Shown: piece by piece, positions 43,829 through 61,342 of the stretch | How the letters are laid out: every line of letters starts with the position of its first letter | Numbering within the stretch: the first letter of the stretch is position 1 | Virus record (IMG/VR): IMGVR_UViG_3300031857_012982 | Coordinates: 1 to 64,000 of that record | DNA length: 64,000 nucleotides | Direction: 5' to 3' (one strand) | Origin: a virus | The notes under the pieces: model-generated | Told to the model about the DNA's origin: nothing | Database searches by the model: none | Seen by the model: the letters and a program-made list of their open reading frames with translations, nothing else | Made by a program: the position numbers and the translations under genes

Positions 43829-43857
43829 TTGATTTTTTCCATAATTAGCTGTACAAT
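43829..43857 (+). promoter_or_regulatory. Sigma-70-like promoter for the 16 kb accessory operon
   Basis: TTGATT (43829-43834), a 17-base spacer and TACAAT (43852-43857) lie in the only gap between the structural block and the accessory operon. Six bases separate the -10 box from the ATG at 43864, so the transcript would start at or beside the start codon, as at 37060. Confidence 0.5.
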
Positions 43858-43863: not shown

Positions 43864-44178
43864 ATGGATATACGATCCCTCAAACAGCAATCTGATCACA
43901 GTTTTAATCTAGCAGTGGCTAAAAAGAATGCTCTAGAACGAGCAAAAAGTCGACAACTGTTTGCTTATAAAGATCATCTATTTCGTGCTGATGCTGATAC
44001 CATAAATCTTGTGCATGCCTTGAAGCAGAACAATAGGAAGTTTTTTCTTCTAGATGCTAACGACAATCCTTGTGAAATTGCTAATCCAGAAGAATTCTTA
44101 CAGTTGTTAATAGAACGTAATCAAGAGACTCTTAATCAATATCATCAATTGCAAGAGCAATTAAAGAGCAAGGAGTAA
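43864..44178 (+). CDS. Hypothetical coiled-coil protein
   Basis: A 104-residue charged protein. It opens with a helix (DIRSLKQQSDHSFNLAVAKK), has a strand-turn part (LFRADADTINLVHALKQNNR, FFLLDANDNPCEI) and ends in a Gln/Glu-rich coiled coil. The layout is faintly like small phage fibre-assembly or DUF4376-type proteins, which is weak evidence. It is first in the accessory operon, with no clear ribosome binding site and a promoter directly upstream; the next gene starts 1 base after its stop. Confidence 0.55.
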   Translation: MDIRSLKQQSDHSFNLAVAKKNALERAKSRQLFAYKDHLFRADADTINLVHALKQNNRKFFLLDANDNPCEIANPEEFLQLLIERNQETLNQYHQLQEQLKSKE

Positions 44179-44179
44179 T

Positions 44180-44938
44180 ATGTCCACAGGAGCATTAATC
44201 TATTGTTTTAACTCTGAACAAGTACAGTATCATAGAACGACTAATTTTTGTATCGAATTAATAAAAAAGAATCTATCGTTACCTGTGACTGTAGTCACTA
44301 ACAATGCAACCAAAGAACATATTAAAGGTACAGATTCGTTAGTCGTAATAGATAATCAAAAGAACAATCAACGTTTTTATAAAGATAGAACGATACCTTG
44401 GTACAATCTTGAGAGATCTCATTCTTATGATTATTCACCCTATGATACTACTGCACTGTTAGATTCTGATTATTTTGTTTATACTAAGAACTTATTAGAA
44501 ACAATCAACAGCAGTTACGAATTTCTTCTGCATGACCGAGTGCATGATTTAACTGGTCGAGGCAGTTTTGAATACAATAATAGAAGTATGATACCGTTGG
44601 TATGGGCCACAGTAACCGTTTTTAAAAAAACACAGAGAGTAAAAAAAATATTTGATATGATCAAACACATACAACAAAATTATAGGTATTTCTGTAAACT
44701 ATACAGAATAGATTTTGCTAATTTTAGGAATGATTATGCTTTTGCCATGGCATTAAATCAGCTGGATGGATTCAATCAACAGTATTTCATGCCCACTGCT
44801 ATGAGCATGATACCCACAGATACCAAAGTTTTAAAAATAGATCACACAGGCATTATATTTCAATACGATAAATTTGTTAATCTAGTCACAGAACAGGATG
44901 TGCATGTGTTAGACAAGGAGATTCCGATTAATGTCTAA
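44180..44938 (+). CDS. Glycosyltransferase-like protein
   Basis: A 252-residue protein of GT-A-like layout: a first strand (GALIYCFNSEQVQYHRT), a second (LPVTVVTNN) and DTTALLDSDYFVYTKN with a D-S-D motif at about 95-97. This is the arrangement of phage-encoded sugar transferases, though family-level assignment is not secure. The C-terminal part has MIPTDTKVLKIDHTGIIFQY. It appears related in plan to the following gene, suggesting duplication. It overlaps that gene by 8 bases. Acceptor and donor are unknown. Confidence 0.55.
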   Translation: MSTGALIYCFNSEQVQYHRTTNFCIELIKKNLSLPVTVVTNNATKEHIKGTDSLVVIDNQKNNQRFYKDRTIPWYNLERSHSYDYSPYDTTALLDSDYFVYTKNLLETINSSYEFLLHDRVHDLTGRGSFEYNNRSMIPLVWATVTVFKKTQRVKKIFDMIKHIQQNYRYFCKLYRIDFANFRNDYAFAMALNQLDGFNQQYFMPTAMSMIPTDTKVLKIDHTGIIFQYDKFVNLVTEQDVHVLDKEIPINV

Positions 44939-45728
44939 AGGTTTTCTATGGTTTGCACAGAACAATGCTACCACTGATTATGCTAAAATTAGTGTGGAGT
45001 TAGCTAAATCTATTAAACTCATTAATAGAGATAATAATATTTGTGTAATAGTAGATAAGAATACTGCTTTGAACAGTGAATATATAGATCAAGTTGTTGT
45101 ATTAAAAGATGATGCCAGTGCAAACGCTGAAACTAAATTTGCCAATGAGCACAAGGCTTTTCGATTATCTCCATTTACTCACACTATAAAACTTGAAGCA
45201 GACATGTTGTTCACTGCCAATACTGACTGGTGGTGGCATCATCTATGTCAGCACGATCTTGTGTTTGCAGTCAATTGTAGAAATTATAAAGATAAGATAG
45301 TTAAAAATACACCTTATAGAAGACTATTTCAATTGAATCATCTGCCTGATATCTACAACGGATTAACATATTTTAGACGCAGTCAACGAGCTATGAAATT
45401 TTTTGATATTTGCCAATCAATCACAGAAAATTGGACTGCTGTACGAGAACAATTATTAATAAATTGTCATGATCTATACCCCACCACCGACGTAGTCTAT
45501 GCTCTAGCATATAGAATAATGGATCCTTTTAATCACAATTTAATAGATTATCCATGGTTTAAATTTATACATGGAAAATCTTCTGTGAATGAGATAACTG
45601 TAGCTGCTGATCAGTACAACTATCTTTATCCCGTAAAGTTAGCAGACAGAATCTATCTTGGAGGTAAGAGATTGGACAGAATTTGGCATTATCATGACAA
45701 AAAACTAATGGACACTATAAATGGATGA
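44931..45728 (+). CDS. Glycosyltransferase-like protein, related to its neighbour
   Basis: A 265-residue protein. It begins KGFLWFAQNNATTDYAKISV, then NICVIVDKN, and HTIKLEADMLFTANTDWWWH in which E-A-D-M replaces the usual DxD. That segment, with RLSPFTHTIKLEADML, is a pattern of GT-A-like enzymes in marine phages that often keep only one acidic residue. A GLTYFRRSQRAMKFFDICQS helix follows. It overlaps both neighbours by 8 bases, so the four genes from 44180 to 46934 are tightly coupled. Whether it is catalytic is open. Confidence 0.5.
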   Translation: MSKGFLWFAQNNATTDYAKISVELAKSIKLINRDNNICVIVDKNTALNSEYIDQVVVLKDDASANAETKFANEHKAFRLSPFTHTIKLEADMLFTANTDWWWHHLCQHDLVFAVNCRNYKDKIVKNTPYRRLFQLNHLPDIYNGLTYFRRSQRAMKFFDICQSITENWTAVREQLLINCHDLYPTTDVVYALAYRIMDPFNHNLIDYPWFKFIHGKSSVNEITVAADQYNYLYPVKLADRIYLGGKRLDRIWHYHDKKLMDTING

Positions 45729-46059
45729 AATATTCAAAGCATTAAATAGTTTTAAATCAACATCTGTTAATGATAACTTTTATATCGAAGTTAGAAACAA
45801 AGAAATAATAACTCTATGCAGAGAACCAAACGATAATACTGTTAAAATTTCACAACAGGACTATAAATTTCTATTAGACAAAGGTATAGAACGTTTCGTA
45901 TACGATCATGGAATCGTAAAAAAACCTAAAAAGAAAACACAAAGAGTTTTTGAAACCTTAAAAAAAGATATGCAAGGATACAATTTACAAGACAATGATC
46001 CTTATTGGCCTATAGAGATAGTGAAAGGAGGTTATACATGGCAAACACCGTGCGAGTAA
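45721..46059 (+). CDS. Hypothetical protein
   Basis: A 112-residue Lys-rich protein with a strand-helix beginning (NDNFYIEVRNKEIITLCREP, VKISQQDYKFLLDKGIERFV) and a basic KKPKKKTQRVF stretch. I cannot assign a family. It overlaps the gene before by 8 bases and the gene after by 22 bases; the downstream ribosome binding site (AAAGGAGG) lies inside its own coding end, a sign of tight coupling rather than of an unreal gene. It could be a small partner of the glycosyltransferase-like proteins. Confidence 0.55.
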   Translation: MDEIFKALNSFKSTSVNDNFYIEVRNKEIITLCREPNDNTVKISQQDYKFLLDKGIERFVYDHGIVKKPKKKTQRVFETLKKDMQGYNLQDNDPYWPIEIVKGGYTWQTPCE

Positions 46060-46934
46060 CTGATTTAGATTTTGTTTTTATTAGCTACAGAGAGCCCAAT
46101 GCTGATGAAAATTATGCTGATCTATTGAACATAGTGCCATGGGCAAAAAGAATACACGGAGTTAAGGGATTTGATAATGCTCATAAGGCTGCTGCTGAAC
46201 TAGCAGAGACAGATTTCTTTATCAGTATTGATGGAGACAATAGAATAGATCCTTTATTCCTATTACAAACTCTAGACTGGACTAAAACTAATCCTGCTGC
46301 TGTGCATCGTTGGAGAGCAAGAAACATTATTAATGGATTAGTGTATGGCAATGGAGGTATTGTGGGATGGCCTCGCAAAACCTGTTTGAACATGCGTACT
46401 CACGAAAATGCTGTGGATGAACGAGCCAAAATAGATTTTTGTTGGACTGTGCCACATGAGAATTTGCACAATGTATATTCTACAACACACATTAACCATA
46501 CTCCTGAACAGGCTTTTATTGCAGGATGGAGAGAAGGTGTAAAAATGAGTCTCAACAATGGACAGAAAGTGGATCCCGGCCTGTTCATGCAAACAATTCC
46601 TCAAAACAATCTAAGAAATTTAGTCACATGGATGAGTGTGGGTGCTGATGTGGACAACGGACGATGGGCTATGTTGGGTGCTAGATGTGGCTGTTATATG
46701 GCCACAATAGATTCAAACTATGATGTTACACTGGTTAGAGATTTAGAATTCATGAGCGACAAATTTTCCCGCATGATGTATGATATAGAATCTGATATTA
46801 TAGCTCATGGCAACTCTTTACGACAGAGATTGGGATTGCCTGTGGCAGATTTTGATGCAGAACAGAGTCGATTCTATAAGTTTTGTCAACAACCTTACAG
46901 AAACAAAGGAGTACAAGATCGTGAAAGCAAGTGA
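46038..46934 (+). CDS. GT2-like glycosyltransferase domain protein
   Basis: A 298-residue protein. The start is the ATG at 46038, preceded by a strong AAAGGAGG (46024-46031); an upstream in-frame ATG at 46005 lacks one. The N-terminal half reads LDFVFISYREPNADENYADL, HGVKGFDNAHKAAAELAETD and FFISIDGDNRIDPLFLL with D65-G-D67, the plan of a family 2 glycosyltransferase. The rest holds PRKTCLNMRTH and a helical tail. The same N-terminal pattern returns at 58402 without the acidic motif. Likely a transfer of sugar to a surface or virion acceptor; not proven. Confidence 0.65.
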   Translation: MANTVRVTDLDFVFISYREPNADENYADLLNIVPWAKRIHGVKGFDNAHKAAAELAETDFFISIDGDNRIDPLFLLQTLDWTKTNPAAVHRWRARNIINGLVYGNGGIVGWPRKTCLNMRTHENAVDERAKIDFCWTVPHENLHNVYSTTHINHTPEQAFIAGWREGVKMSLNNGQKVDPGLFMQTIPQNNLRNLVTWMSVGADVDNGRWAMLGARCGCYMATIDSNYDVTLVRDLEFMSDKFSRMMYDIESDIIAHGNSLRQRLGLPVADFDAEQSRFYKFCQQPYRNKGVQDRESK

Positions 46935-48303
46935 TTACAAACACAATGCTGATCAAGCACAGAAAAAATTAAACACAGTTAGCCCAAGTTTCTGTCTTGC
47001 GAAATGGAATCAGGTATCATTGCACCTGCCTACAGGATTAACCAACTCTTGTTATCATCCTCCACTGCATGAAATAGATGCAGGAGCATTGGCTCAAAAT
47101 CCTGCTGCTCTGCACAACACTGCACAGAAGATTGTAGAGAGACGACAGATGATTGCGGGAGAACGACCCGAAGGATGCTCCTATTGTTGGAAACTCGAAG
47201 ACGCTGGAGAGATGAGTGATCGCCACTATCGTAGTGGAGAACCATGGGCCATGCAGGATTTTGACAAGATAACGCAAGATCCTCTCAATGTTCAGCACAC
47301 ACCTTCGTATGTGGAAGTGAATTTTAACAATGCTTGCAATCTAAAATGCAGCTATTGTTCACCACAATTCAGCACCACGTGGGGCAAAGAGATAGATATC
47401 TATGGAGAATATCCTACCCATCCAGCACACAATGCACCCGAACACTTCATGGGTCGTAGAAAACCCATACCCAACAGAGAAAACAATCCCTATGTGGAAG
47501 CATTTTGGCGATGGTGGCCCGAATTGTATAAGAATTTAAAACATTTTCGCATGACTGGTGGAGAACCCATGATGGATAACAACACTTATCGAGTGTTTGA
47601 TTATATTATATCACATCCAAAACCTGATCTACATTTGAATGTTACATCTAATATGTGTCCACCCACAGACAAATTAAAGAATCAGTATTTTGATGCTGTC
47701 AAAAGAATGTGTTTAGATGAGAGCATCGAGCATTTCATGCAATTTGTATCTGTGGATGCTCATGGACCTCGTGCTGAATATATCCGACATGGTATGAATT
47801 ACAATCGTTTAATGGATAATGTGGATGAATTTTTAACTCGCATACCTGGACGCAACAGTGTGAGCTTTATTATAACCTATAATAATCTCAGTGTAACATC
47901 ACTGGATCGATTATTAGTGGATATTCGTCAATTGAGACAGAAACATTCTTCTACCTATCAGCGAGTGTGGTTCGACATACCTCTACTGCGTCAGCCAGCA
48001 TGGCAGCAGATCACTCTGCTTCCGGAAAGTTATCAAAGTATACACGAGAAAAACATAGAGTATATGAAACAGTACCAAGAGAACACTGATTCAGACAAGA
48101 AAGATTATGCTGTGTTTAAGGACTTTGAGATTCAAAAAATGCTGCGCAATCTTGCTTACTGGCGCAAACACACAGAAACAAATAATACGCAAAAAAAGAA
48201 TTTTTACGCATTTTTTGCAGAACATGATCGCAGGAGAGGTACGAGCTTTGAAAGAACATTTCCTGAGATGCAGGAATTTTGGCAGGAGTGTAAGAGTTTA
48301 TGA
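46921..48303 (+). CDS. Radical SAM protein 1 of 5, N-terminal twitch/SPASM-like domain
   Basis: A 460-residue protein. I place the start at a GTG (46921) with AAAGGAG nine bases before it; a longer frame from 46807 lies inside the previous gene. The N-terminal ~130 residues have a cysteine set SFCLAKW (C25), SCYHPP (C44) and EGCSYCW (C86, C89), which I read as an auxiliary-cluster twitch domain placed before the core. The core has C139-x3-C143-x2-C146 (CNLKCSYC), FRMTGGEPMM and NVTSNM, then a TIM-barrel-like remainder. A C-terminal HDRRRGTSFERTFPEM segment recurs in its paralogues. It overlaps both neighbours. Substrate unknown. Confidence 0.85.
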   Translation: MKASDYKHNADQAQKKLNTVSPSFCLAKWNQVSLHLPTGLTNSCYHPPLHEIDAGALAQNPAALHNTAQKIVERRQMIAGERPEGCSYCWKLEDAGEMSDRHYRSGEPWAMQDFDKITQDPLNVQHTPSYVEVNFNNACNLKCSYCSPQFSTTWGKEIDIYGEYPTHPAHNAPEHFMGRRKPIPNRENNPYVEAFWRWWPELYKNLKHFRMTGGEPMMDNNTYRVFDYIISHPKPDLHLNVTSNMCPPTDKLKNQYFDAVKRMCLDESIEHFMQFVSVDAHGPRAEYIRHGMNYNRLMDNVDEFLTRIPGRNSVSFIITYNNLSVTSLDRLLVDIRQLRQKHSSTYQRVWFDIPLLRQPAWQQITLLPESYQSIHEKNIEYMKQYQENTDSDKKDYAVFKDFEIQKMLRNLAYWRKHTETNNTQKKNFYAFFAEHDRRRGTSFERTFPEMQEFWQECKSL

Positions 48304-48950
48304 AAACAATAGGATTCTTTGGAGATAGTTTCTGTGCCGGCAGAGAACCCGAGAGCTGGTGTGTATTATTAGCCAATCAATTAAATGCTCGAATAGTGCA
48401 TTGGGGAGAACCTGGACGAAGTATATGGACTACTTTCTTTAAATTTAATCAATTGAACAAAACAAATAGATTACCTGATATCTGTGTTTTGTGTTATACA
48501 GAACCTTATAGATTGTATCATCCATCTTTAATACTTTCTGCTAATACTGCTCCTATGAAAGGAGTAGATCCTAAAATTTATGAAGCTCTAGAACAATATT
48601 TTATACATTTACACAGCTATGACAAAGATGAATTGTGTTATGAATATGCTCTAAAATGGTTTGATCATGATGTTCTATCTAAAATAAAGAATAAAACAAT
48701 TGTACAAACGTGGAGTTTTCGACCATTTGAACAATCAAAAAAAGATGCTGGTATAAAATTAAACAGTGGAATATTCGTTGATGAGAGCATGTATGCTCTA
48801 TCATTGAATCATGAATTAAATTTTTTACCTGGCAGAGGTGCTACCATGCCATGGGGCAAAGGCATAATCAACCATATGAGTGCTGAACAAAATAAACTTT
48901 GGGCTGATAAAGTTTATACAGCAATTAAAAACAATGAATCCAGATCTTGA
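48300..48950 (+). CDS. SGNH/GDSL-like hydrolase
   Basis: A 216-residue protein. The first strand reads KTIGFFGDSFCAGREPESWC, a GDS block with S10 as likely nucleophile, followed by the G-block WGEPGRSIWTTF. Near the C-terminus INHMSAEQNKLWADKVY places H192 where SGNH enzymes have their catalytic His. The usual Asn block is not clear. SGNH proteins are esterases or O-acetyl hydrolases and transferases of sugars or peptidoglycan, so a role in editing a glycan fits the operon. It overlaps the radical SAM genes before (4 bases) and after (17 bases). Confidence 0.7.
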   Translation: MKTIGFFGDSFCAGREPESWCVLLANQLNARIVHWGEPGRSIWTTFFKFNQLNKTNRLPDICVLCYTEPYRLYHPSLILSANTAPMKGVDPKIYEALEQYFIHLHSYDKDELCYEYALKWFDHDVLSKIKNKTIVQTWSFRPFEQSKKDAGIKLNSGIFVDESMYALSLNHELNFLPGRGATMPWGKGIINHMSAEQNKLWADKVYTAIKNNESRS

Positions 48951-50283
48951 ATATCGTAAACAAATATTAGATTCTCTATCTCCCAGTTTCTGTGGAGCCA
49001 AATGGTACAATGCTACCATATGGTTGGGATCTGGCATGACTACCAGTTGTCATCATCCACCTGCACATCGAGTGGATGTAGAAAAATTAAAAGATAATCC
49101 TCGATTATTGCACAACACTCCTCAAAAGAAACAGGATCGTGCTAAAATGATTGCTGGTGAAAGACCTGCAGGTTGTGAATATTGCTGGAAAATAGAAGAC
49201 ATGGGCAGAGATGCTGTGAGTGATAGAGTATATAAAAGTAAAATTTATCCAGATGCAGAATTAGAAAGAGCATTCAATACTCCTATCACAGAAGACATTA
49301 ATCTCAAAACTCTAGAGATTGCTTTTGATAGAACATGTAATTTTGCTTGTTCTTATTGTAATCCTGCATTTAGTACCACATGGGTAAGAGATATAAAACA
49401 AAATGGTCCTTATAAAGATTTAATATCAGATGGTAGAAATCATTTTACTCATCCTCATGATGGTGCACAATTGTACAAAGACACAGAAGAAAATCCCTAT
49501 GTGGAAGCATTCTTTCGATGGTGGGAGACAGATTTACACAAAACTCTAGATGAATTAAGAATCACAGGCGGAGAGCCCATGATGAGTCCTTCTTTGTGGA
49601 GATTATTAGATTGGTTTGAAACACAGGGAGAACGAATTAATCCCAATATGAGATTGGCCATTAACTCTAACTTAGTACCCAAGGCAGAATTATTTGAAAA
49701 ATTTGTAGATAAATGTAAAAAAATAAAAAATTTACATATCTATACTTCCAATGAATCAACGTATGCTCATTCAGATTATATTAGAGATGGAATGAATTAT
49801 ACTAATTGGTATGTAAATTTTGTTAATGTAATTAATCAAATAAGACCTGCAGGACTGCACAACATGTGTACAGTAAATGCTCTGTGTCTAGAATCATTAC
49901 CTCAGTTTTTAGATGTTATTATAAGAAATAAATTAGATGCTAAAAGAGTTTATGGAGTAGATGTAAACTTTACTTTAAACATACTGAGATTTCCTAGTTT
50001 TCAATCGCCTTTAGTATTGCCAGATTATCTAAGAACAGAATTCAAAGACAATTTATCACAATGGCTAGACACAAATATAGCTCATTGCGAGTTTATGGAA
50101 GTATCTCATGTGCAAAGATTAATAGATTATCTAGATGTGGTTAAAACACCTCATTCTGAAGCATTTGATTTACCAAGACTAAGGTCTGATTTCAAAAATT
50201 TCTATAAACAATACGATGTAAGAAGAGGCAAAGATTTTGCAAAAACATTCACAAGAATAGGAGAGTGGTACCGTGGCTTATGA
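48934..50283 (+). CDS. Radical SAM protein 2 of 5, N-terminal twitch/SPASM-like domain
   Basis: A 449-residue paralogue of the protein at 46921. I use the ATG at 48934 (MNPDLEYRKQ); the longer frame runs into the SGNH gene. N-terminal Cys set: SFCGAKW (C20), TSCHHPP (C39), AGCEYCW (C81, C84). Core cluster motif CNFACSYC (C135, C139, C142), then RITGGEPMM and AINSNL. The shared phrases NPYVEAFFRWW (NPYVEAFWRWW in protein 1), YIRDGMNY and a final RRGKDF-x-KTF show it is closest to protein 1. Substrate unknown. It overlaps the next radical SAM gene by 11 bases. Confidence 0.85.
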   Translation: MNPDLEYRKQILDSLSPSFCGAKWYNATIWLGSGMTTSCHHPPAHRVDVEKLKDNPRLLHNTPQKKQDRAKMIAGERPAGCEYCWKIEDMGRDAVSDRVYKSKIYPDAELERAFNTPITEDINLKTLEIAFDRTCNFACSYCNPAFSTTWVRDIKQNGPYKDLISDGRNHFTHPHDGAQLYKDTEENPYVEAFFRWWETDLHKTLDELRITGGEPMMSPSLWRLLDWFETQGERINPNMRLAINSNLVPKAELFEKFVDKCKKIKNLHIYTSNESTYAHSDYIRDGMNYTNWYVNFVNVINQIRPAGLHNMCTVNALCLESLPQFLDVIIRNKLDAKRVYGVDVNFTLNILRFPSFQSPLVLPDYLRTEFKDNLSQWLDTNIAHCEFMEVSHVQRLIDYLDVVKTPHSEAFDLPRLRSDFKNFYKQYDVRRGKDFAKTFTRIGEWYRGL

Positions 50284-51565
50284 GTATGGGGCTAAAGAGC
50301 CTGAAAAATTAAAAATTAAGGACATGACTGAACGTCAGAAAGAGTTATTGTTAGATAGTAAAACTTTCTGTATGCTGCCTTGGATGCATATACATTCGTA
50401 TCCGGATGGTCGAGCCTATCCTTGTTGTTTTGCATTAGATTCTTATCCTATTGGTGATTTGAATAAGAGTTCTATGGAAGAAGTATTCAACGGAGAAGCA
50501 ATGAAAGAGATGAGAACGAACATGTTAGAGAATAAAACTTCTAAGCAATGTGCAAAATGTTATGATCAAGAAAAAGCCGGTTTCTTCAGTATGAGATTGA
50601 GTTCAAATAAACATTTTGGACACAATATAGGATTAACAGATGCTACACAGCCAGACGGTACTGCTGATTTTATAATCAAATATTGGGATATAAGATTTAG
50701 TAATCTTTGTAATTTTGCTTGTAGAAGTTGTGGCACGTGGTTTAGTTCTAATTGGTACGAGGATCATAAAAAACTCACAGGAGCTCCTCCCCCACATGCA
50801 AAAATTATGCGAGTAGGCAGATCAGAGAATGATATATGGGAACAGTTATTGCCACAAATAGATCATATGGAACAGATTTATTTTGCTGGAGGAGAACCCC
50901 TGATCATGGAAGAACATTATAGAATTTTAAAAGAATTAGATCGTAGAAAGTTATATCACGTGAGATTAACTTACAATACAAATTTTAGTAAATTAACTTT
51001 TAAAGATATGGATGTCTTAGAATTATGGAACAAATTTCACACAGTATCAATAGGTGCTAGTTTAGATGCTGAAGGGGAAAGAGCCGAAGTTATAAGAAAA
51101 GGCACAGTATGGAAGGATATTGTAGAAAATAGAAAAAGAATGATAGAAGTTTGTCCAAAGGTAGATTTCTATATCAGTGCTACAGTTAGCATGATCAATG
51201 CATTACATATTCCAGACTTTCATAGAAGTTGGGTTGAACAAGGTCTTATTAAACCTCAAGATTTTAATTTTAATCTATTACAAATGCCAAAATGGCAAAG
51301 AATGGATAATTTACCCAAGGAATATAAAGAACGTATTGAAAAGAAATATCTTGCACATATAGAATGGTTAAAAGACAAAGATCATTTAACTAGAGCAACC
51401 AAAGGTTTTGAGAGTGCATTAAAATGGATGAACATGACCGACAATACAAAAAATTTACCTATGTTTTTTGAATTATCAAAAAAATATGATAATATCAGAG
51501 GAGAAAGTTTAGTAAAAACATTTCCAGAGCTGACAGAATTATTCGAAAAATATGAAAAAAATTAA
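50273..51565 (+). CDS. Radical SAM protein 3 of 5, N-terminal twitch/SPASM-like domain
   Basis: A 430-residue protein. N-terminal domain: TFCMLPWMHIHSYPDGRAYP followed by CCFALD (C33, C51-C52) and KQCAKCYDQE (C93, C96), which resembles the auxiliary-cluster part that usually sits at the C-terminus of SPASM proteins. Core: C146-x3-C150-x2-C153 (CNFACRSC), IYFAGGEPLIM and TYNTNFS. A GASLDAEGERAEVIRKG segment follows, as in peptide-modifying family members. It ends in RGESLVKTFPELTELFEK, the C-terminal phrase of this paralogue set. It is followed by a 14-base overlap with the next copy. Confidence 0.87.
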   Translation: MAYEYGAKEPEKLKIKDMTERQKELLLDSKTFCMLPWMHIHSYPDGRAYPCCFALDSYPIGDLNKSSMEEVFNGEAMKEMRTNMLENKTSKQCAKCYDQEKAGFFSMRLSSNKHFGHNIGLTDATQPDGTADFIIKYWDIRFSNLCNFACRSCGTWFSSNWYEDHKKLTGAPPPHAKIMRVGRSENDIWEQLLPQIDHMEQIYFAGGEPLIMEEHYRILKELDRRKLYHVRLTYNTNFSKLTFKDMDVLELWNKFHTVSIGASLDAEGERAEVIRKGTVWKDIVENRKRMIEVCPKVDFYISATVSMINALHIPDFHRSWVEQGLIKPQDFNFNLLQMPKWQRMDNLPKEYKERIEKKYLAHIEWLKDKDHLTRATKGFESALKWMNMTDNTKNLPMFFELSKKYDNIRGESLVKTFPELTELFEKYEKN

Positions 51566-52856: not shown

Positions 52857-54010
52857 AATCTAATATGTGTGTGCTGCCATGGACACATCTAGAAGTAGAT
52901 GTTAATGGTTCCGCATCGCCTTGCTGTCTTTATAAAGGAGAAATAGGAGATTATAAAGTTTATCGAGATAATCTTGATACTATACAGAATTCAGAATATA
53001 TGAATGATTTAAGAGCTCAATTCCGCCGAGGTGAACGTCCTGCAGGTTGCAGTAATTGTTGGCAGGAGGAAGACGCTGGCAAAATCAGTAAAAGAATGAA
53101 TTCTATCTATAAAATGAAAAATAGTTTACAAAATTGGACACCAGAAACAACGCCCACTTTAAAATTTATTGATTTTAAACTAGGCAATGTGTGTAATTTA
53201 AAATGTCGTATATGCGGCAGTTGGAGCAGTTCAAAATGGGCTCAGGAAGAGATTGCCTATGGTCCAAATCCTCTAGCAAAGAAACAATTAGATGAAGGAC
53301 AATGGCCCAAACGAAATCCTGCTTTCTTTGAAGATATTAAACCTGTATTAAAAGATGTAGAATATTTTGAGTTTACAGGTGGTGAGCCTTTTATGATAGA
53401 AAATCATTTTAAAATATTAGAACACTGTGTGGAACAAGGTTATGCTCGCAATCAAGATATACATTATAATACCAATGGCACACAATTGCCTGATCGAAGA
53501 GTGTTTTGGTTATGGAGCCAATTTAAACATGTAGAAATTGCATTCAGTATTGACGACACAGGAGCAGCGTTTGAATATCAACGTCATCCTGCTAAGTGGG
53601 AACAAGTCAAAGAGAATTTAAAAGAATTTAATATAAGATCCACACTTACAGGCAATACTGATTTTCAAATCTGTTCCACAATTAATATCTTTAATATATT
53701 AAATTTAGACACTTTAGTCGAATGGGTTAAAGAATTTAATCCTAAATTCCTATATATTAATACTCTATTTGATCCTGAATATTTTAATGTACAAACACTA
53801 CCTATAGAACTAAAAAAGATAGTAACAGAAAAATATAAAAATATAAAAGAATTAGATACTATAATCGGTTATATGAATAGTGCAGATCGATATTCTGATA
53901 CTATACACGAACAAAGAAAGAAAAGAATACTGCAAGCAGATCGATACAGAGAAGAAAATTTTGCTGAGGTTTTTCCAGAGTTAAATAATTTTTTAAAGAT
54001 ATATGAGTAA
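52838..54010 (+). CDS. Radical SAM protein 5 of 5, N-terminal twitch/SPASM-like domain
   Basis: A 390-residue protein, the shortest of the set. N-terminal cysteines: NMCVLPWTHLEVDVNGSASP then CCLYKG (C11, C29-C30) and AGCSNCWQEEDAGK (C71, C74). Core: C119-x3-C123-x2-C126 (CNLKCRICGSWSSSKW), FEFTGGEPFMI and YNTNGTQ, then AFSIDDTGAAFEYQRHPAKW. The final REENFAEVFPELNNFL matches the C-terminal phrase of copies 1-3. This copy is the most like free-standing marine bacterial twitch radical SAM proteins in plan. It overlaps the following SGNH-like gene by 8 bases. Confidence 0.87.
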   Translation: MVEKYIKSNMCVLPWTHLEVDVNGSASPCCLYKGEIGDYKVYRDNLDTIQNSEYMNDLRAQFRRGERPAGCSNCWQEEDAGKISKRMNSIYKMKNSLQNWTPETTPTLKFIDFKLGNVCNLKCRICGSWSSSKWAQEEIAYGPNPLAKKQLDEGQWPKRNPAFFEDIKPVLKDVEYFEFTGGEPFMIENHFKILEHCVEQGYARNQDIHYNTNGTQLPDRRVFWLWSQFKHVEIAFSIDDTGAAFEYQRHPAKWEQVKENLKEFNIRSTLTGNTDFQICSTINIFNILNLDTLVEWVKEFNPKFLYINTLFDPEYFNVQTLPIELKKIVTEKYKNIKELDTIIGYMNSADRYSDTIHEQRKKRILQADRYREENFAEVFPELNNFLKIYE

Positions 54011-54812: not shown

Positions 54813-54913
54813 TACAATGGATAAAAAATTTAATAAACAAAATTCGATTAGAGCGACAATATCGTAAGAGATTGAAAGAGTTAAAAAAGAAAGATCCTTT
54901 CATCTACAAATAA
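54809..54913 (+). CDS. Cationic micropeptide (34 aa)
   Basis: A very short gene that overlaps the SGNH stop as ATGA and has CAGGAGG upstream with good spacing. It is followed 1 base after its stop by the carbamoyltransferase gene. The product has a start MIQWIKNLINKIRLERQYRK and ends in PFIYK: 12 Lys/Arg against 3 acidic residues, net about +9, with hydrophobic residues spaced as in an amphipathic helix. It could be membrane-active, a small binding partner, or a substrate of the neighbouring enzymes; none of these is proven. The placement and ribosome binding site make it more than a chance frame. Confidence 0.55.
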   Translation: MIQWIKNLINKIRLERQYRKRLKELKKKDPFIYK

Positions 54914-54914
54914 A

Positions 54915-56405
54915 ATGAGAATATTAGGAATTAATTGTCTAAATCACGATGCTGCTATGGCTGTGGTTGAAGATGGAGAAATCCTATGGGCGGCACATGC
55001 AGAAAGATACAGCAAAGATAAGAATGATCACTATCTCAATTGGCAAATAGTAAATGAAGCTCGCGAATACGGACCATGGGACAAAGTGGTTTATTATGAA
55101 AGACCTCTGTTAAAGAAAACTCGACAAGCCCGTGCTGGTCAATGGTCAGAAGTTTTTTCTCGAACAAATATACCACAAAATTATTTAGATGCGTTTGGAA
55201 TACGAATAGATGAATATGTGAGTCATCACGAATCTCATGCTGCTGCAGGATTTTTTACATCTCCGTTCTATGATGCAATGGTACTAACAGTGGATGCCAT
55301 AGGAGAATGGGATACCACTTCGATATGGCAAGCTCAAGGCAAACGATTAGATCTATGCTACAAAATCAAATATCCTCATTCATTGGGTTTACTCTATTCA
55401 GCGTTTACACAGAGAGTAGGACTCAAACCTGCTGAAGAAGAATATATTCTAATGGGCATGGCAGCATATGGAGAACCTAGATATGTGGCAGAAATCTATA
55501 GAGACCTTGTGGATAGAGATGGAGATTTTGCATTAAAGAAAAATTTACATAAAGGATTGGGCAATTGGTTACCAGAAGCTGATCCTATGGACCTAGCAGC
55601 CAGTATACAAAAAGTTACGGAACGAGAATTAGAAAAATTATGGCGTAAGACTCGACAGTACATACCTGCAAGTCAAATAGCAGTTAGTCGATACGGCAAC
55701 AAAAGAAATCTAGTGTATGGTGGTGGTGTGGCTCTTAATTGTGTGGCCAACAGTAAATTGGCCAATCTAGGATTATTTGACAACATATGGATCATGCCTA
55801 ACCCAGGTGATGCCGGCAGTTCCATTGGTTGTATTGCAGCCGCTGAACGAAAACATATCCATTGGCGTCATCCTTTCCTAGGACACAACATAGAAGGGGA
55901 ATATCCTGTGGATCACTTAATAAAAGAATTAGAAAAAAATCGTATGGTAGGAGTAGCGAATGGCAGAGCTGAATTTGGACCACGAGCACTTGGTAATAGA
56001 TCATTGCTGGCAGATCCACGTGGCAATGATATCAAAGATTTGGTAAATCGTATCAAACAAAGACAGGAATTTCGACCATTTGCACCCGCTATACTAGAGG
56101 AGGATTTACATGAATATTTTGAGGTGCCTAAGTGCGTTGTAAACACCCCTTATATGCAATTTATAGGCATTTGTAAGCATGGTAAAGACTTTCCTGCCAT
56201 TGTGCATCATGACGGTACAAGTCGTGTGCAAACAGTGAATAAAACGCAGAATCCAGGCTTTTACCAACTGTTAAAAACATGGAAGGAAAAAACCGGATGT
56301 CCAATGCTGTTAAACACATCACTGAATATCAAAGGTGAACCCATAGTGAATGATATCAAGGATGCGGAACGCTTCGAAACCAAGTATAATGTAAGAGTAT
56401 GTTAA
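54915..56405 (+). CDS. NodU/CmcH-family carbamoyltransferase
   Basis: A 496-residue protein with the family's landmarks: GINCLNHDAAMAVVEDG (H11, D12), VSHHESHAAAGFF (H104, H105, H108), LTVDAIGEWDTTS, YILMGMAAYGEP, VYGGGVALNCVANSKL, MPNPGDAGSSIG and GRAEFGPRALGNRSLLADPR. These enzymes transfer carbamoyl from carbamoyl phosphate to hydroxyl groups of sugars, Nod factors, antibiotics or tRNA-like targets. It is slightly shorter than most relatives (about 550-600) and ends soon after GEPIVNDIKDAERF. Being next to an epimerase and an aminotransferase argues for a sugar acceptor. It overlaps the next gene by 7 bases. Confidence 0.9.
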   Translation: MRILGINCLNHDAAMAVVEDGEILWAAHAERYSKDKNDHYLNWQIVNEAREYGPWDKVVYYERPLLKKTRQARAGQWSEVFSRTNIPQNYLDAFGIRIDEYVSHHESHAAAGFFTSPFYDAMVLTVDAIGEWDTTSIWQAQGKRLDLCYKIKYPHSLGLLYSAFTQRVGLKPAEEEYILMGMAAYGEPRYVAEIYRDLVDRDGDFALKKNLHKGLGNWLPEADPMDLAASIQKVTERELEKLWRKTRQYIPASQIAVSRYGNKRNLVYGGGVALNCVANSKLANLGLFDNIWIMPNPGDAGSSIGCIAAAERKHIHWRHPFLGHNIEGEYPVDHLIKELEKNRMVGVANGRAEFGPRALGNRSLLADPRGNDIKDLVNRIKQRQEFRPFAPAILEEDLHEYFEVPKCVVNTPYMQFIGICKHGKDFPAIVHHDGTSRVQTVNKTQNPGFYQLLKTWKEKTGCPMLLNTSLNIKGEPIVNDIKDAERFETKYNVRVC

Positions 56406-57343
56406 AAATATTGGTAACAGGTGGTGAAGGTTTTATAGGCGGTTGGATTGTGGAAAAATTGTCTCAGATGGGACATAGAGTTACTACTCTAGATTCTGGA
56501 GAAACCTATGATGTGATTGAAAGGCAAGATCTAGATAGATTATGCCGTTGGAGACAGAGGAATTGGAAACGAGTTACAAAAATATCAGGCAATGTGACCA
56601 TGCCTTTGGATCGTGTGTGGTTGAAAAAACAAGATATTGTGATACATCTAGCATCTTATCCCAGAGCTAGAATAGTGCATGATCATCCAGAAATGGGAGT
56701 AGAGAACATAGTGGTAGGTACCACAGGAATGTTACAAGATTGTGTGGAGTATGGTGTAAAAAGATTTGTTTATGTTTCTTCCAGTATGATATATGGAGAT
56801 TTTGCAGATGGAGCAGATGAAAAAACTGCACCAAATCCTATCAATATCTACGGAGAAGCCAAGTTAACAGGAGAAAGATTAACGCAACAATTTAATAGAT
56901 CATTTGGATTGGAATATGTGATAGCAAGGCCCAGCGGAGTATACGGAGCAGGTGATATTCCAGATAGAGTATTAAGTAAATTTTTTGATGCTGCTATGAA
57001 TAATCAAAATATTTCAGTGCATGGTGCTGATAATCGAGTGGACTTTACCTACGTAGAAGATGCAGCAGACGGTATTATTCGTTGTGCTCTAGAAAAACAA
57101 GCAGCCAATAAAATTTTTAATATTACAGCAGGCAGTGCAAACAGTTTAGGAGAAGCAGCCAAAAAAATTATTCAATTAACAGGTAGTAAGAGTCAGATTA
57201 AAGACACAGGAAAAAATAAATTATATCCCAATAGAGGCACGTTAGATGTATCTCAAGCACAACAATTATTAGGATATAGGCCTCAACACAGTTTTGATCA
57301 AGGTATTGCAAAGTATTATGAGTGGTTACAAAATAAAATTTAA
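56399..57343 (+). CDS. NAD-dependent sugar epimerase/dehydratase
   Basis: A 314-residue extended SDR protein: GGEGFIGG at 8-15 (NAD-binding), a conserved HLAS (83-86), SSSMIYG with the catalytic Ser, and Y151-x3-K155 (IYGEAK). RPSGVYGAGD and FTYVEDAADGI are typical of UDP/GDP-sugar epimerases and dehydratases. The exact reaction (4-epimerisation, 4,6-dehydration, or other) cannot be read from this. The paralogue at 59727 has the same motifs. It overlaps the carbamoyltransferase gene (7 bases) and the aminotransferase gene (26 bases), so the three form one unit for a modified sugar. Confidence 0.88.
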   Translation: MLKILVTGGEGFIGGWIVEKLSQMGHRVTTLDSGETYDVIERQDLDRLCRWRQRNWKRVTKISGNVTMPLDRVWLKKQDIVIHLASYPRARIVHDHPEMGVENIVVGTTGMLQDCVEYGVKRFVYVSSSMIYGDFADGADEKTAPNPINIYGEAKLTGERLTQQFNRSFGLEYVIARPSGVYGAGDIPDRVLSKFFDAAMNNQNISVHGADNRVDFTYVEDAADGIIRCALEKQAANKIFNITAGSANSLGEAAKKIIQLTGSKSQIKDTGKNKLYPNRGTLDVSQAQQLLGYRPQHSFDQGIAKYYEWLQNKI

Positions 57344-58412
57344 CGGATTAGATAGAATCTATTCTCACTATAAAACAGAGCTGGATGCAGCAGCCAAAGA
57401 AGTGTGGCGCACAGGCAATGTATTAATAGGTAGAAAAAAAGAAGATTCAGAATTGGGTATATTTGAAGATTTAATAGCCAACTATGTGGGCAGAGAATAT
57501 GCTGTGGGAGTACAGAGCTGTACAGATGCTCTTTATTTTGCTCTAAGAGCTCATGACATAGGATCAGGTAAAACAGTAATATGTCCAGCATTATCTTTCC
57601 TGAGCACAGCAACAGCTATTAAACGTACAGGTGCTGCAGTTGAGTTTGTTGATGTTGGAGAAGATGGTCAGATTGGTGAGCTTGGAGATATCAAAGCCGA
57701 TGCTCTAGTGTATGTAAATCTATATGGTAATCTAGCCGACTATGATAGATTGAAACAGCATTGTCGTAAAAATAAAATATTATTGATAGAAGATGCTGCT
57801 CAGTCTTTAGGAGCATATTATAAAAAATCACAATCTGGCAATCTAGGAGATATCAGTGTGCTAAGTTTCTCTCCTGTAAAAAATCTTCCAGCATTCGGCA
57901 ACGGTGGCATGATATTAACAGATGATAAAAAAATAGCAGAAAAATGTCTAGCTCTGAGATATCATGGAGTAAATGGAGAAGATGTAGAGCATGGGTATAA
58001 TTCTGTAATGTCAGAAAGCCAAGCTGCACAATTGAATGTATTAATGATGGATTTTAATACTTTGCAAGACAGAAGACAGCAAGTTAGAGATCAATATAAT
58101 CAGCATTTAAAAAAATTATTAAATGTTAAAACTATCGATACACAAACAAACACAATAGGTTCTAATCACAAATTAGTAATATTATGCAAAGATAGAGATA
58201 GTTTAAAAGAATTTCTCTCTAACAAAGGCATAGAAACACAAATACACTATAATGAAATATTGCCTCACACAAAATACTTCAATAATAAAAATTCTTTCCC
58301 TAATGCTGAAAGAATTTCAAAAGAATGTTTGAGTCTTCCAATCTATCCACATTTAAAAAAGAATGAGATCAAATATATTTGTGATATGATAGGAGAATTT
58401 TATGGCTTTTGA
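57318..58412 (+). CDS. DegT/DnrJ/StrS-family aminotransferase
   Basis: A 364-residue PLP enzyme. I start it at the ATG at 57318, since an earlier in-frame ATG lies inside the epimerase end. Motifs: SCTDALYFAL (about 67-76), VYVNLYGNLADYD, IEDAAQSLGAYY (D159 and Q162), SFSPVKNLPAFGNGG with Schiff-base K188, and a C-terminal SLPIYPHL. The family aminates keto-sugars made by dehydratases, as in dTDP- or UDP-aminosugar pathways. Together with the epimerase it would build an aminosugar. Length is near the usual 370-390. It overlaps the next gene by 11 bases. Confidence 0.92.
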   Translation: MSGYKIKFNGLDRIYSHYKTELDAAAKEVWRTGNVLIGRKKEDSELGIFEDLIANYVGREYAVGVQSCTDALYFALRAHDIGSGKTVICPALSFLSTATAIKRTGAAVEFVDVGEDGQIGELGDIKADALVYVNLYGNLADYDRLKQHCRKNKILLIEDAAQSLGAYYKKSQSGNLGDISVLSFSPVKNLPAFGNGGMILTDDKKIAEKCLALRYHGVNGEDVEHGYNSVMSESQAAQLNVLMMDFNTLQDRRQQVRDQYNQHLKKLLNVKTIDTQTNTIGSNHKLVILCKDRDSLKEFLSNKGIETQIHYNEILPHTKYFNNKNSFPNAERISKECLSLPIYPHLKKNEIKYICDMIGEFYGF

Positions 58413-59730
58413 TTGTATCTGTATAGATTTTAAAAATAATAAAAGTGAACAAAATATAAAGAATATTAAAAAAGTATTTCCTTATGCGAGAGTTATACCA
58501 TTCCTACAGAGCTATTACGAAATAATACAATCTCAAATCTCATCTTGCAGCACAAGATATCTATGGTTGCTTTCTAGTTTAATTGATTATCGAGATTTTG
58601 ATTTTGGATTTATACCTGAACAATTCCAAGAAAAACAAATTCATGTTTGGTCAATAGAAGGACAGAAAGAAGGTGATACATTCTTAATACCAAAAAAATT
58701 TACAGAACAACAAATAGAGTATCTACGAGATTATAAAGATATTAACTATCATACAGCAAATAACATACACTATGATTATGATATTGCAGAATCTCCTTAC
58801 GATTTAAGTAATAACATTGATTGTTTAGAAAGAGTATCAGGACCTGCTGGCAAATATGTTAAACATTTTGAAAAGAAAAATGATAAAAAAATATATCCTT
58901 CTTATTGGGAAGATCTAAAAATTTATATTGATGGTACTACATTCTATGTACCAAATGCAGCCGTAGATAAGATTCATACACAAATATATGACTATCATCT
59001 ATTGTATCGATTGCAAAATAATCTAGAAAAAGATTGTTTTGATATTGCCTTTATATCTAATAGAGAACCATTTGAAGAAGACAATTACAATCTATTAAAA
59101 GAGCATCTACAAAAGAATAATTTAAAAAATAGATTATATTGGGTGCGAGGAGTAGATGGAAGAACAGCAGCATATAAACAAGCAGCCGAACAATCCAGCC
59201 AAGAATATTTTTATGCTGTATTTGCAAAAAGCCAAGTGGACAAAAATTTTATGTTTAATTACACTGTAGATAGAGCAAAAAATAAAAGACATTATATATT
59301 TCACGCAAGATTATGCGAACTTGGATTAGAATATGGTACATTTAATATCAATCTTTTTTCTCGATCTTTATGTCTCGATACTCCAGATACTCCAGGCCTG
59401 GATTTTACTCTTTATAGCAAACATGAAGTTGTACCTATAGTGGCAAACACAGCATTATTGTGCCCAGACAACTATACAGCATGGAAAAATGCTTTTAGAG
59501 AAGTTAGCAAATTAATATTATGGAATAAGCAACGTCCTACAGTGGAAACAGGATATAGAATTGAAAAATGGTTGTCTACAGATAATACATGGCTAAAACG
59601 AGGAGCACATGATGCTAAAAAATTTGTGGAAGATTCTAATTTCGATATTGTAAAGATAGAAGAGACTTATTCTTGGAAGTTCACTAAAGAAACTTTTTCT
59701 AAATTATATCCTGCAGAGCAGAGCTATTAA
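58402..59730 (+). CDS. Two-domain GT2-like protein lacking the acidic motif
   Basis: A 442-residue protein. Residues about 213-290 (FDIAFISNREPFEEDNYNLL, VRGVDGRTAAYKQAAEQSSQ, EYFYAVFAKSQVDKNFMF) match the N-terminal domain of the protein at 46038, but the DGDNRID segment there is AKSQVDK here (about 275-281). Residues 1-100 look like another, more distant copy (FDCICIDFKN, STRYLWLLSSLIDYRDFDFG). It is therefore a tandem domain protein that has lost a catalytic-looking acidic pair in at least one domain. It may bind rather than transfer sugar. It ends convergently with the minus-strand epimerase gene, with the stops overlapping as TTAA. Confidence 0.55.
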   Translation: MAFDCICIDFKNNKSEQNIKNIKKVFPYARVIPFLQSYYEIIQSQISSCSTRYLWLLSSLIDYRDFDFGFIPEQFQEKQIHVWSIEGQKEGDTFLIPKKFTEQQIEYLRDYKDINYHTANNIHYDYDIAESPYDLSNNIDCLERVSGPAGKYVKHFEKKNDKKIYPSYWEDLKIYIDGTTFYVPNAAVDKIHTQIYDYHLLYRLQNNLEKDCFDIAFISNREPFEEDNYNLLKEHLQKNNLKNRLYWVRGVDGRTAAYKQAAEQSSQEYFYAVFAKSQVDKNFMFNYTVDRAKNKRHYIFHARLCELGLEYGTFNINLFSRSLCLDTPDTPGLDFTLYSKHEVVPIVANTALLCPDNYTAWKNAFREVSKLILWNKQRPTVETGYRIEKWLSTDNTWLKRGAHDAKKFVEDSNFDIVKIEETYSWKFTKETFSKLYPAEQSY

Positions 59731-60698
59731 AAATTAAGATTATCGCGGTAAAATTTTTGTTTTAGGAACCAATCAATATATTCTGGTATGCCTTGCTCAA
59801 TATCAATCATTGGTTGAAATCTTAAAAGATTAACTGCTTTGTCGCTGTTTAATGTATCTCTATTAGGATAAAATTCATCATGTGGTTTAGTATTAATTTT
59901 AACACTGCCTATTTTTGATTGGATTATTTCTGCAGCTTCCATTATTCGACGACCGCGTCCTCTAGTGCAATTAAAAATTTCATCCACTACATCTGATAGA
60001 GTAGCTCTAACAAAATACTCTGCCACATCTTCTACGTGAGAAAAATCTAATTTATTGTCCGGTCCTTGCACAGTCATTTCTTTTTTAGTTAATGCGTTTT
60101 TAACTAACTGACTTATTACTCTCACAATCATATCAGGACAGCCATATAAAGCCGAAGGTCTCATTATTACATAGTTTAATCCGTGTAATCTTCTCCAAAC
60201 TTTACACATGAGTTCTCCTTGATACTTGTAAGAACCATATAGAGTATTAGGACTTGGAGTGACAGTTTCATCTGGTATCTGTTCTTTAAAATCTCCATAA
60301 ACCATGCTGCTGGAAGAAAATACAATTTTTTTTACTTGATGCTTAACACATAAATCTAAAATATTTGCTGTGGCTGTAATCATATTGCCTGTAGCATCAT
60401 CAATATTACTTTGCACCATTTTAGCATTGGGATAAGTGCCTAAATGTATTACTCTTTCTGGTTGAAATTCTGCGAAAGTTTTTTCCATGAATTCTTTGTC
60501 TTCTATTCTTCCTACAAATGTACGATCGTTGGCTGCAATAGTTTTTCTTAAATCTAATATTGGAAAGTATTCCCAATCAGGAAAAGCATTATATTGATGA
60601 TAACAATCTACCACACCAACCATGTGTCCTTCTTTTTTTAATCGTTGGCTAACTCTACTGCCAATAAAACCATGTCCTCCAAGTATTAGAATGTTCAT
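59727..60698 (-). CDS. NAD-dependent sugar epimerase/dehydratase
   Basis: A 323-residue extended SDR protein: GGHGFIGSR at 7-15, HLGTYPNAK, SSSSMVYGDF, Y154-x3-K158 (LYGSYK), RPSALYGCPD and FSHVEDVAEYF. It is a paralogue of the gene at 56399 with the same motif plan, encoded in the opposite direction and in another transcription unit. The product sugar is unknown. It overlaps the deacetylase start by 4 bases (ATGA), so the two work as a pair: an N-acetyl sugar could be epimerised and then deacetylated. The gene ends in 4 overlapping bases with the convergent glycosyltransferase-like gene. Confidence 0.88.
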   Translation of the reverse strand: MNILILGGHGFIGSRVSQRLKKEGHMVGVVDCYHQYNAFPDWEYFPILDLRKTIAANDRTFVGRIEDKEFMEKTFAEFQPERVIHLGTYPNAKMVQSNIDDATGNMITATANILDLCVKHQVKKIVFSSSSMVYGDFKEQIPDETVTPSPNTLYGSYKYQGELMCKVWRRLHGLNYVIMRPSALYGCPDMIVRVISQLVKNALTKKEMTVQGPDNKLDFSHVEDVAEYFVRATLSDVVDEIFNCTRGRGRRIMEAAEIIQSKIGSVKINTKPHDEFYPNRDTLNSDKAVNLLRFQPMIDIEQGIPEYIDWFLKQKFYRDNLNF

Positions 60699-61342
60699 GC
60701 TATCAGTTGATATTGTATAGAGAATGTTTCTGCTATTTTATTCTCTCCTAAAAAAGATCCTCTATATCGATTGTAGTTTATAATTTGTTCTATATTCTGT
60801 TGCGAAAAATAAGACTTATAACATCTTAGAGCTTGTTGTTTTTGTTCTAAATGTTCTGTTATATCCACATATAGATTTGTTTTAAAATTACTGTAGTGCA
60901 GATTATAAGGAGTTTGATCCATACACCAAAATTCTTTAAAAAATTTTCGAGACAAACTCTGTGCTAATTCATAACATATTCTATGTTCTTGATGAGAATC
61001 TTCTCGCCAATGAGATATTAATACATCATATCCTTTGGATATTCCTTCCACTGCTGTTATTAAATTATTGTTTAATGTTAAATTAGGACGACCATTACTG
61101 TGTAGAGGAGTGTTATAAAATTCAACAGTATGTTTTAAAACTTTTTGACTATTTTCTAATTCGGATTTTACAACGGTTTCATTCCTGTTTTTGTTAATTT
61201 CTACAGAAGGTCTTATCATGATACAGTTGGTTACTGTACCACTATTTTGTATGATTTTAGATATTAAACCGCCGCAGGCAGATTCTGCATCGTCTGGGTG
61301 AGCTGTGAGTATAAAGAATTTTCTTTTGTAAAATTCATTCAT
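60695..61342 (-). CDS. PIG-L/LmbE-family deacetylase
   Basis: A 215-residue protein. The zinc-site motifs are intact: AHPDDAE (H15, P16, D17, D18) and SHWREDSHQEHR (H111, D115, H117, H120). The family removes N-acetyl groups from GlcNAc-containing substrates (GlcNAc-PI, mycothiol and bacillithiol precursors, antibiotics). In this context the likely target is an N-acetylated sugar handled by the epimerase 4 bases downstream. Length is typical. It is itself coupled by ATGA to the gene at 61339. A small free sugar or a lipid-linked sugar cannot be distinguished. Confidence 0.9.
   Translation of the reverse strand: MNEFYKRKFFILTAHPDDAESACGGLISKIIQNSGTVTNCIMIRPSVEINKNRNETVVKSELENSQKVLKHTVEFYNTPLHSNGRPNLTLNNNLITAVEGISKGYDVLISHWREDSHQEHRICYELAQSLSRKFFKEFWCMDQTPYNLHYSNFKTNLYVDITEHLEQKQQALRCYKSYFSQQNIEQIINYNRYRGSFLGENKIAETFSIQYQLIA

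Follow-up and report, generated by a model that had tools for sequence, protein, structure and literature searches.

Pelagimyophages and T4-like marine phages have a host recognition cluster (HRC) that contains tail fibres, glycosyltransferases (GTs) and radical SAM (rSAM) cassettes, and surface modification was proposed as its role (PMC7029224). Cyanophages such as S-SSM7 and P-SSM2 carry lipopolysaccharide (LPS) gene clusters, whose function was left open by the authors (PMC3037559), and a T4-like environmental marine genome with 12 rSAM genes was discussed in terms of Fe-S metabolism (PMC5332604). A change of the host surface by such genes in T4-like marine phages is already in print (PMC7029224; cf. 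PMC3037559). Here we describe a run of genes, the module, at positions 43864-61342 of IMG/VR virus record IMGVR_UViG_3300031857_012982. The window analyzed comprises bases 1-64000 of this 70,822-base record, a contig that ends at base 70,822. An earlier note on this DNA had read the run as a phage-encoded pathway for a decorated aminosugar or glycan. We propose that the module probably both builds and decorates an unusual glycan and belongs to the HRC of a T4-like aquatic phage.

Relatives of the module were gathered from ~160 viral loci, 79 through rSAM1 and, separately, 80 through NodU, and synteny was counted in 48 non-redundant loci whose rSAM1 homologues are <90% identical. Open reading frames (ORFs) were called mechanically, and the metagenomic contigs, some of them redundant, are incomplete. 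The order kept in these loci runs from fibre genes through GT_44180, GT_44931, GT_46005, rSAM1, rSAM2 and rSAM3 to rSAM4, rSAM5 and often NodU, while the identity of core proteins across loci ranges from ~25 to 90%. On the 5' side of the rSAM1 homologue we observed GT_46005 in 39/43 loci, GT_44931 in 36/43 and GT_44180 in 35/43, together with relatives of the fibre-like genes at 41162-42787 (30/43) and 42789-43814 (26/43). On the 3' side, rSAM2 was found in 26/33 loci, rSAM3 in 27/33, rSAM4 and rSAM5 in 23/33 each, and NodU in 18/33. The core is a set of three predicted GTs, five apparently orthologous N-Twitch rSAMs, an SGNH-like protein and NodU, placed after fibre genes; the sugar genes stressed in the earlier note are the swappable part and lie outside it. 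The names "fibre" and "SGNH", where given to unmatched proteins, are our reading of the sequence and, for the fibres, of position as well. The core and the genes interspersed with it are as follows.

43864-44178, + strand: small ORF, first of the run, kept in 28 loci; no family match
44180-44938, + strand: GT_44180, predicted GT8-like glycosyltransferase, from hhalign to GT_44931
44931-45728, + strand: GT_44931, predicted GT8/glycogenin-fold glycosyltransferase, from AlphaFold2 (AF2), Foldseek and PDB profile
45721-46059, + strand: small ORF found in 23 loci; no family match
46038-46934, + strand: GT_46005, GT-A-fold glycosyltransferase-like; start at 46038 preferred over the TTG at 46005
46807-48303, + strand: N-Twitch radical SAM 1 (rSAM1); NF033640, 322 bits
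48300-48950, + strand: SGNH-like protein 1, motif GDSF only; in 16 loci, optional in relatives
48880-50283, + strand: N-Twitch radical SAM 2 (rSAM2); NF033640, 286 bits
50273-51565, + strand: N-Twitch radical SAM 3 (rSAM3); NF033640, 419 bits, with an N-terminal PF13186 SPASM match
51552-52856, + strand: N-Twitch radical SAM 4 (rSAM4); NF033640, 307 bits
52838-54010, + strand: N-Twitch radical SAM 5 (rSAM5); NF033640, 377 bits
54003-54812, + strand: SGNH-like protein 2 (SGNH2), from invariant residues; no profile match
54915-56405, + strand: NodU/TobZ-type O-carbamoyltransferase; PF02543 3.5e-47, PF16861 2e-54

All five rSAMs exceed the cut-off of NF033640, "twitch domain-containing radical SAM" (286-419 vs 170 bits), and CxxxCxxC is present in 5/5. 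The called ORF of rSAM1 overlaps GT_46005 by 128 bases, so that its true start probably lies further 3'. In most loci the best window match of each rSAM is the one at its own ordered position (no tree was built), and these positional matches suggest that the five diverged long ago as separate lineages and are not recent copies. Among isolated phages, rSAM1 found matches of 23% only, in two Vibrio phages.

The GT-like genes had no match in Pfam. AF2 models built on alignments of 35-39 homologues reached a pLDDT of 94 for GT_44931 and 94 for GT_46005. The GT_44931 model retrieved glycogenin (GT8) as the top Foldseek match (E 2e-8, TM ~0.53), as did a PDB profile search (E 2.7e-5), and GT_44180 is homologous to GT_44931 by hhalign (99.7%). 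The GT_46005 model matches GT-A enzymes at a distance (TM ~0.35, best Z 10.1); its structural matches are led by glycosyltransferases, with nucleotidyltransferases among the next matches. The alignments show invariant DxD-type acids, as D95 and D97 in GT_44180, as DGD in GT_46005 and likewise in GT_44931, and the predicted GT-A fold together with these acids assigns the proteins to the GT8 or GT-A group. No match to GT_46005 was found in 50,697 phage records.

NodU contains both domains of its family and the HHxxHA and EFGPRAL motifs, its best PDB matches are NovN, GdmN and TobZ, and its acceptor is predicted to be a sugar hydroxyl. It is 25-27% identical to a phage carbamoyltransferase that acts on 5-hydroxymethylcytosine (5hmC) in DNA (PMC8670742). 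The DNA enzyme has C and T at two positions of the ALGNRS motif, and the window NodU and 29/29 relatives retain G and R there. By motif and not by structure, we equate these positions with G421 and R423 (TobZ numbering), which are the differential residues reported for the DNA-acting branch (PMC8670742). The two SGNH-like proteins had no significant family match in profile searches, and SGNH2 had no profile or PDB match. Their likeness to SGNH proteins is at the level of motifs, GDSF or GCSF plus a late His; in SGNH2, residues S11, G51, N54 and H241 are invariant across 26 homologues.

Downstream of NodU lies the variable slot, with the following genes.

56399-57343, + strand: SDR1, nucleotide-sugar epimerase type; PF01370 7.6e-42
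57294-58412, + strand: DegT sugar aminotransferase, 3-amino type by similarity; PF01041 1.3e-79
58402-59730, + strand: orf_58402, related to GT_46005 in its C-terminal half (hhalign 99.5%)
59727-60698, - strand: SDR2, nucleotide-sugar epimerase type; PF01370 4.8e-40
60695-61342, - strand: PIG-L zinc de-N-acetylase; PF02585 4e-11

YxxxK is present in both SDR1 and SDR2, and the best PDB matches of SDR1 are MoeE5 and GalE-type epimerases. 4,6-Dehydratases carry a DE pair. In our own reading of the motif, both SDRs read SSSM(I/V)YG and lack this pair, and we rejected them as 4,6-dehydratases. DegT has the SFxPxK lysine motif and is more similar to QdtB (5e-49) and WbpE (1e-40) than to ArnB (2e-24), with a scyllo-inositol transaminase among its best PDB matches; by these similarities, it is nearest to the 3-aminosugar aminotransferases of QdtB/WbpE type. 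In PIG-L, AHPDD and a His-rich stretch are conserved, and the PDB matches are BshB-like. The GT_46005-like half of orf_58402 is a degenerate relative that has lost the DGD motif and for this reason is maybe not catalytic. No sugar-nucleotide synthase, 4,6-dehydratase or N-acyltransferase was found among the ORFs examined, and the pathway must therefore draw on nucleotide-diphosphate sugars of the host.

We compared the region between NodU and the right-flank genes in 23 relatives whose NodU is <95% identical. SDR1, DegT, Gfo/Idh/MocA, SDR2 with PIG-L, and orf_58402 occurred in 11 combinations, so the slot has the hypervariable content of an HRC (11 slot genotypes among 23 relatives), and near relatives lack SDR1, DegT or the SDR2-PIG-L pair in many combinations. 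SDR2 and PIG-L are perfectly linked, being together in 10/23 relatives and both absent from 13/23 (nominal P 9e-7, a value that ignores shared ancestry). Extra sugar-type cassettes occupy the slot in relatives, namely Gfo/Idh/MocA with DegT, and a cupin. Gfo/Idh/MocA beside DegT is the arrangement known from WbpB and WbpE in 3-aminosugar synthesis; the dehydrogenase is present in 6/23 relatives and was not seen beside DegT in the window. Since relatives carry this pair and gene sets vary, an aminosugar slot is supported, yet it is optional.

These results uphold most of the family assignments of the earlier note. The two SDRs, DegT, NodU and PIG-L lie where it had placed them, as long intact ORFs with curated profile matches; its rSAM array corresponds to the five NF033640 members at 46807-54010; and its GT-like genes are supported by the modelled GT-A folds of GT_44931 and GT_46005 and the homology of GT_44180, with no support from Pfam. 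Its two SGNH hydrolases have motif-level support, with the invariant S/G/N/H set in SGNH2, and no significant family match.

Bacterial genomes were scanned with GT_46005 alone, and phage contigs binned into metagenome-assembled genomes (MAGs) were set aside. In 9/9 Bdellovibrionota genomes, a Twitch rSAM gene was found near GT_46005 homologues, at a gap of 27-3986 bases and away from phage or fibre genes. The nine genomes are mutually related, and one is a Bdellovibrio-like MAG labelled just "bacterium". Because no rSAM was used in the scan, this association is independent, and the pairing in 9/9 genomes without fibres indicates that the rSAM array and the GTs probably form a single pathway, as judged from gene neighbourhoods. 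Each genome has 6-33 NF033640 matches, not all above the cut-off. Among the neighbouring genes are GT2 transferases, and also a QueC-like ATPase with an rSAM that resembles the window gene at 36044-37075; such a QueC-like/rSAM set lies near the homologues in loci L195 and L193. Twitch-rSAM matches are dense in places, with >10 within 30 kb (G014:C1:745-775 kb), and some rSAM-bearing loci of Bdellovibrionota contain relatives of the window ORF at 1866-2666 as well. The open-access literature yielded nothing relevant on Bdellovibrio, radical SAM and glycosyltransferase together.

In Rhodobacterales, GT_46005 homologues share a cassette with further GTs and a gene for a caspase-family protein, with no rSAM (L204, on a plasmid of Rhodobacter sp. 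CZR27, L187 and L199). In one annotated plasmid, the homologue is inside a type VI secretion system (T6SS) cluster. Of the GT_46005 host genomes, 11/11 tested have TssC (10 are Rhodobacterales, the other a Paraburkholderia MAG), but it is on the GT_46005 contig only in G008 (~8 kb away) and G011 (~48 kb). The T6SS link is partial genome-wide; we keep it as a lead and make no claim on it.

The module is preceded by a conserved element.

43820-43857 (38 bp), + strand: promoter-like element, TTTACCA..TTGATT-17-TACAAT, its function proposed from conservation

The element is preserved in ~15 relatives, in which the fibre coding sequence just 5' of it is not preserved, and it is single in the contig (53 bits vs 11.6 for the runner-up site). 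Its imperfect inverted repeat extends into the start codon of the ORF that follows (ATG, 43864). An RNA hairpin at the element is weak in 7 variants (z -1.1 to -3.4), and a sigma70 scan gave no enrichment over shuffles. The element may act as a regulated promoter or as a hairpin at the start codon. In a check for late timing shared with the fibres, no TATAAATA was found ahead of the module, and a weak GATAAATA was found ahead of the fibre gene at 42789.

The families, folds, synteny, slot variation and rSAM-GT linkage set out above are consistent with the following scheme, in which the substrates, the order of steps and the target are our proposal. The swappable SDR1, DegT and SDR2-PIG-L genes, and Gfo/Idh/MocA with DegT in relatives, would edit nucleotide sugars made by the host, yielding an epimerized, aminated or de-N-acetylated sugar. 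The three GTs would place sugars on an acceptor, after which the five Twitch rSAMs would carry out radical reactions on either partner; NodU would add an O-carbamate, and an acyl group would be put on or taken off by the SGNH-like proteins. Among related phages the product would vary in a serotype-like manner. A phage-encoded sugar or glycan pathway with aminotransfer, deacetylation and O-carbamoylation, as in the earlier note, remains the best reading, but that pathway is incomplete and its aminosugar genes are optional cassettes.

Several points weigh against the scheme. The sugar pathway is incomplete, no step for export to the envelope is encoded, and the contig is a 70.8-kb fragment. We know of no substrate for any Twitch rSAM of the NF033640 family. 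The Rhodobacterales cassettes, some of them in T6SS loci, could point to a protein acceptor. In addition, Twitch/SPASM rSAMs are known mainly or often as peptide modifiers (PMC11002830).

Among the module ORFs no membrane-like segment was detected (top hydrophobic 19-mer 1.32). In the contig and its relatives, the initiating phosphoglycosyltransferase PF02397 was found in 0/7 records and the flippase PF01943 in 0/8. A complete Wzx/Wzy-type O-antigen locus was rejected on these grounds. Export would thus be host-borne or unnecessary, and since the parts are soluble and neither a flippase nor an initiating transferase was found, the target would be either a lipid-linked envelope precursor of the host or the phage fibres. 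We give a slight and tentative preference to a glycan made on the lipid-linked precursor, which would block rival phages. The position beside fibres suggests a virion target, and the promoter-like element of the module together with the Bdellovibrionota counterpart suggests a role apart from fibres.

It is somewhat unlikely, but a serious alternative, that the module glycosylates the phage's own fibres or virion proteins, with cytosolic GTs joining a sugar to fibre residues and the rSAMs, NodU and SGNH-like proteins tailoring it and so altering receptor binding or hiding the fibre. The module is directly 3' of two co-oriented fibre-like genes in most relatives, and all of its parts are soluble, with no flippase or phosphoglycosyltransferase in 7-8 records; O-antigen GTs, however, are soluble too, and host export could be used. 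GT_44931 resembles glycogenin, a protein glucosyltransferase, but the glycogenin fold is common to many LPS GT8 enzymes. Relatives of GT_46005 in some T6SS loci, a contractile-tail relative, fit a virion acceptor; a conserved promoter-like element belonging to the module and the rSAM-GT pair beside GT2 genes in Bdellovibrionota chromosomes speak against it.

We consider it unlikely that the rSAMs of the array act on a peptide or protein, as a fibre backbone or in the manner of ribosomally synthesized and post-translationally modified peptides, with the sugar genes as unrelated passengers of a hypervariable region. The peptide substrates on which Twitch/SPASM rSAMs are mainly known (PMC11002830) and the variation of the sugar genes independently of the rSAM core would agree with this. 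However, no conserved short precursor ORF stood out, although no systematic search was made, and the rSAMs accompany the same three GTs in phages and GT_46005 homologues in fibre-less Bdellovibrionota loci. A diffusible aminoglycoside-like small molecule is very improbable. DegT, PIG-L, NodU-type, rSAM and GT families form the toolkit of aminoglycoside biosynthesis at family level, and the antibiotic enzymes NovN, GdmN and TobZ head the PDB matches of NodU, and a scyllo-inositol transaminase is among the best of DegT; yet no cyclitol (2-deoxy-scyllo-inosose) synthase was noticed in the module annotation, in which no dedicated profile search was made, the conserved neighbours are fibre genes and not exporters or resistance genes, and a secreted product would be of little gain to a lytic phage. 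DNA hypermodification, in which NodU would carbamoylate 5hmC and other enzymes would add groups to evade restriction, is disfavoured as the least probable of all, despite the known phage enzyme (PMC8670742) and the QueC-like and QueE-like genes on the contig, given the low identity to the DNA enzyme and the retained G and R of ALGNRS, a thymidylate-synthase family present in 3/15 related records (many fragmentary), and the GTs that adjoin carbamoyltransferases in unmodified contigs (PMC8670742).

The genes flanking the module bear on its phage and its extent.

41162-42787 and 42789-43814, + strand: two fibre-like genes directly 5' of the module, their function proposed from sequence and position
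32684-37075, - strand: second glycan-type block, with two GT-like ORFs, a methyltransferase (PF13578), a QueC-like ATPase (PF06508) and an rSAM (PF04055)

Because the contig carries gp46/gp47-like recombination genes, hub, gp25, a baseplate wedge protein, a 4290-aa ORF and a fibre-like series, the source is a T4-like myophage. No nucleotide-level relative was found among isolated phages. MAG bins containing module-bearing contigs carry the names of several unrelated taxa, so that binning is no guide to the host. An Rfam search of 32000-64000 gave no match. The families fall within the originally proposed extent of 43864-61342, but related glycan-type genes also occupy the block at 32684-37075 and a Twitch rSAM lies at contig positions 65264-66382. 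In that block the QueC-like ATPase adjoins the rSAM at 35257-37075 (- strand; the rSAM gene is 36044-37075). The rSAM at 65264-66382 (- strand), the sixth of the Twitch type and outside the module, is beside a gene pair for a MoxR-like ATPase and a vWA-like protein, and a QueE-like rSAM is at the contig end (70084-70821, - strand). Oxygenase-like, amidinotransferase/deiminase-like and aminotransferase-like ORFs lie beside gp46/47 at 259-2666 (+ strand).

The hub, gp25 and wedge genes are followed by the 4290-aa ORF and this in turn by fibre-like genes, an order that corresponds to the placement of an HRC-type island. As in the HRC, the module belongs to a large variable island beyond baseplate genes, with fibres, GTs and rSAMs; the main text of the HRC paper (PMC7029224) contains neither an ordered core of five Twitch rSAMs and three GTs nor NodU or PIG-L cassettes, and the word "carbamoyl" is absent from it. 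The right boundary of the HRC (gp14) falls beyond the contig under study. In Pelagibacter phage Mosig EXVC030M (MT647606), the region at 54-74 kb between fibre and VrlC genes encodes an aminotransferase 34% identical to DegT, a carbamoyltransferase 33% identical to NodU, three MoaA-like rSAMs and an epimerase, but no homologue of the window Twitch rSAM array or of GT_44931 or GT_46005 at E 1e-4. Protein p31230 shares 40% identity with a Mosig protein near VrlC, and the 4290-aa ORF showed no homology to VrlC at E 1e-4. The cyanophage clusters (PMC3037559) resemble the module as phage-borne sugar genes, yet they sit near hli03 or phoH and the module sits at fibres; cyanophages also carry carbamoyltransferases, 28-30% identical to NodU. 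The environmental genome of PMC5332604 has many rSAMs, like the window, with no glycan-module context there. The slot resembles the WbpB/WbpE 3-aminosugar pathway in its 3-amino-type DegT and, in relatives, its Gfo/Idh/MocA with DegT, and differs in that no Gfo/Idh/MocA was seen in the window. As far as we found in open-access papers and 50,697 phage records, what is new is the ordered rSAM/GT/NodU core, the separate swappable aminosugar slot, the upstream element and the Bdellovibrionota counterpart.

Sugar genes of phages are commonly catalogued as loose auxiliaries; separating a fixed core from cassettes turns them into an ordered, testable pathway, and the Twitch rSAM-GT pairing in phages and Bdellovibrio-like bacteria is a clue to action on glycans or glycoproteins. 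We raise as a conjecture, short of an even chance, that the N-Twitch rSAMs and the GT_46005 family constitute an undescribed radical-SAM glycan-editing system common to T4-like phages and Bdellovibrionota chromosomes, to which phages add swappable aminosugar cassettes for serotype-like surface or fibre glycans. If the product is on fibres or the host envelope, cassette swapping would be the phage counterpart of O-antigen variation.

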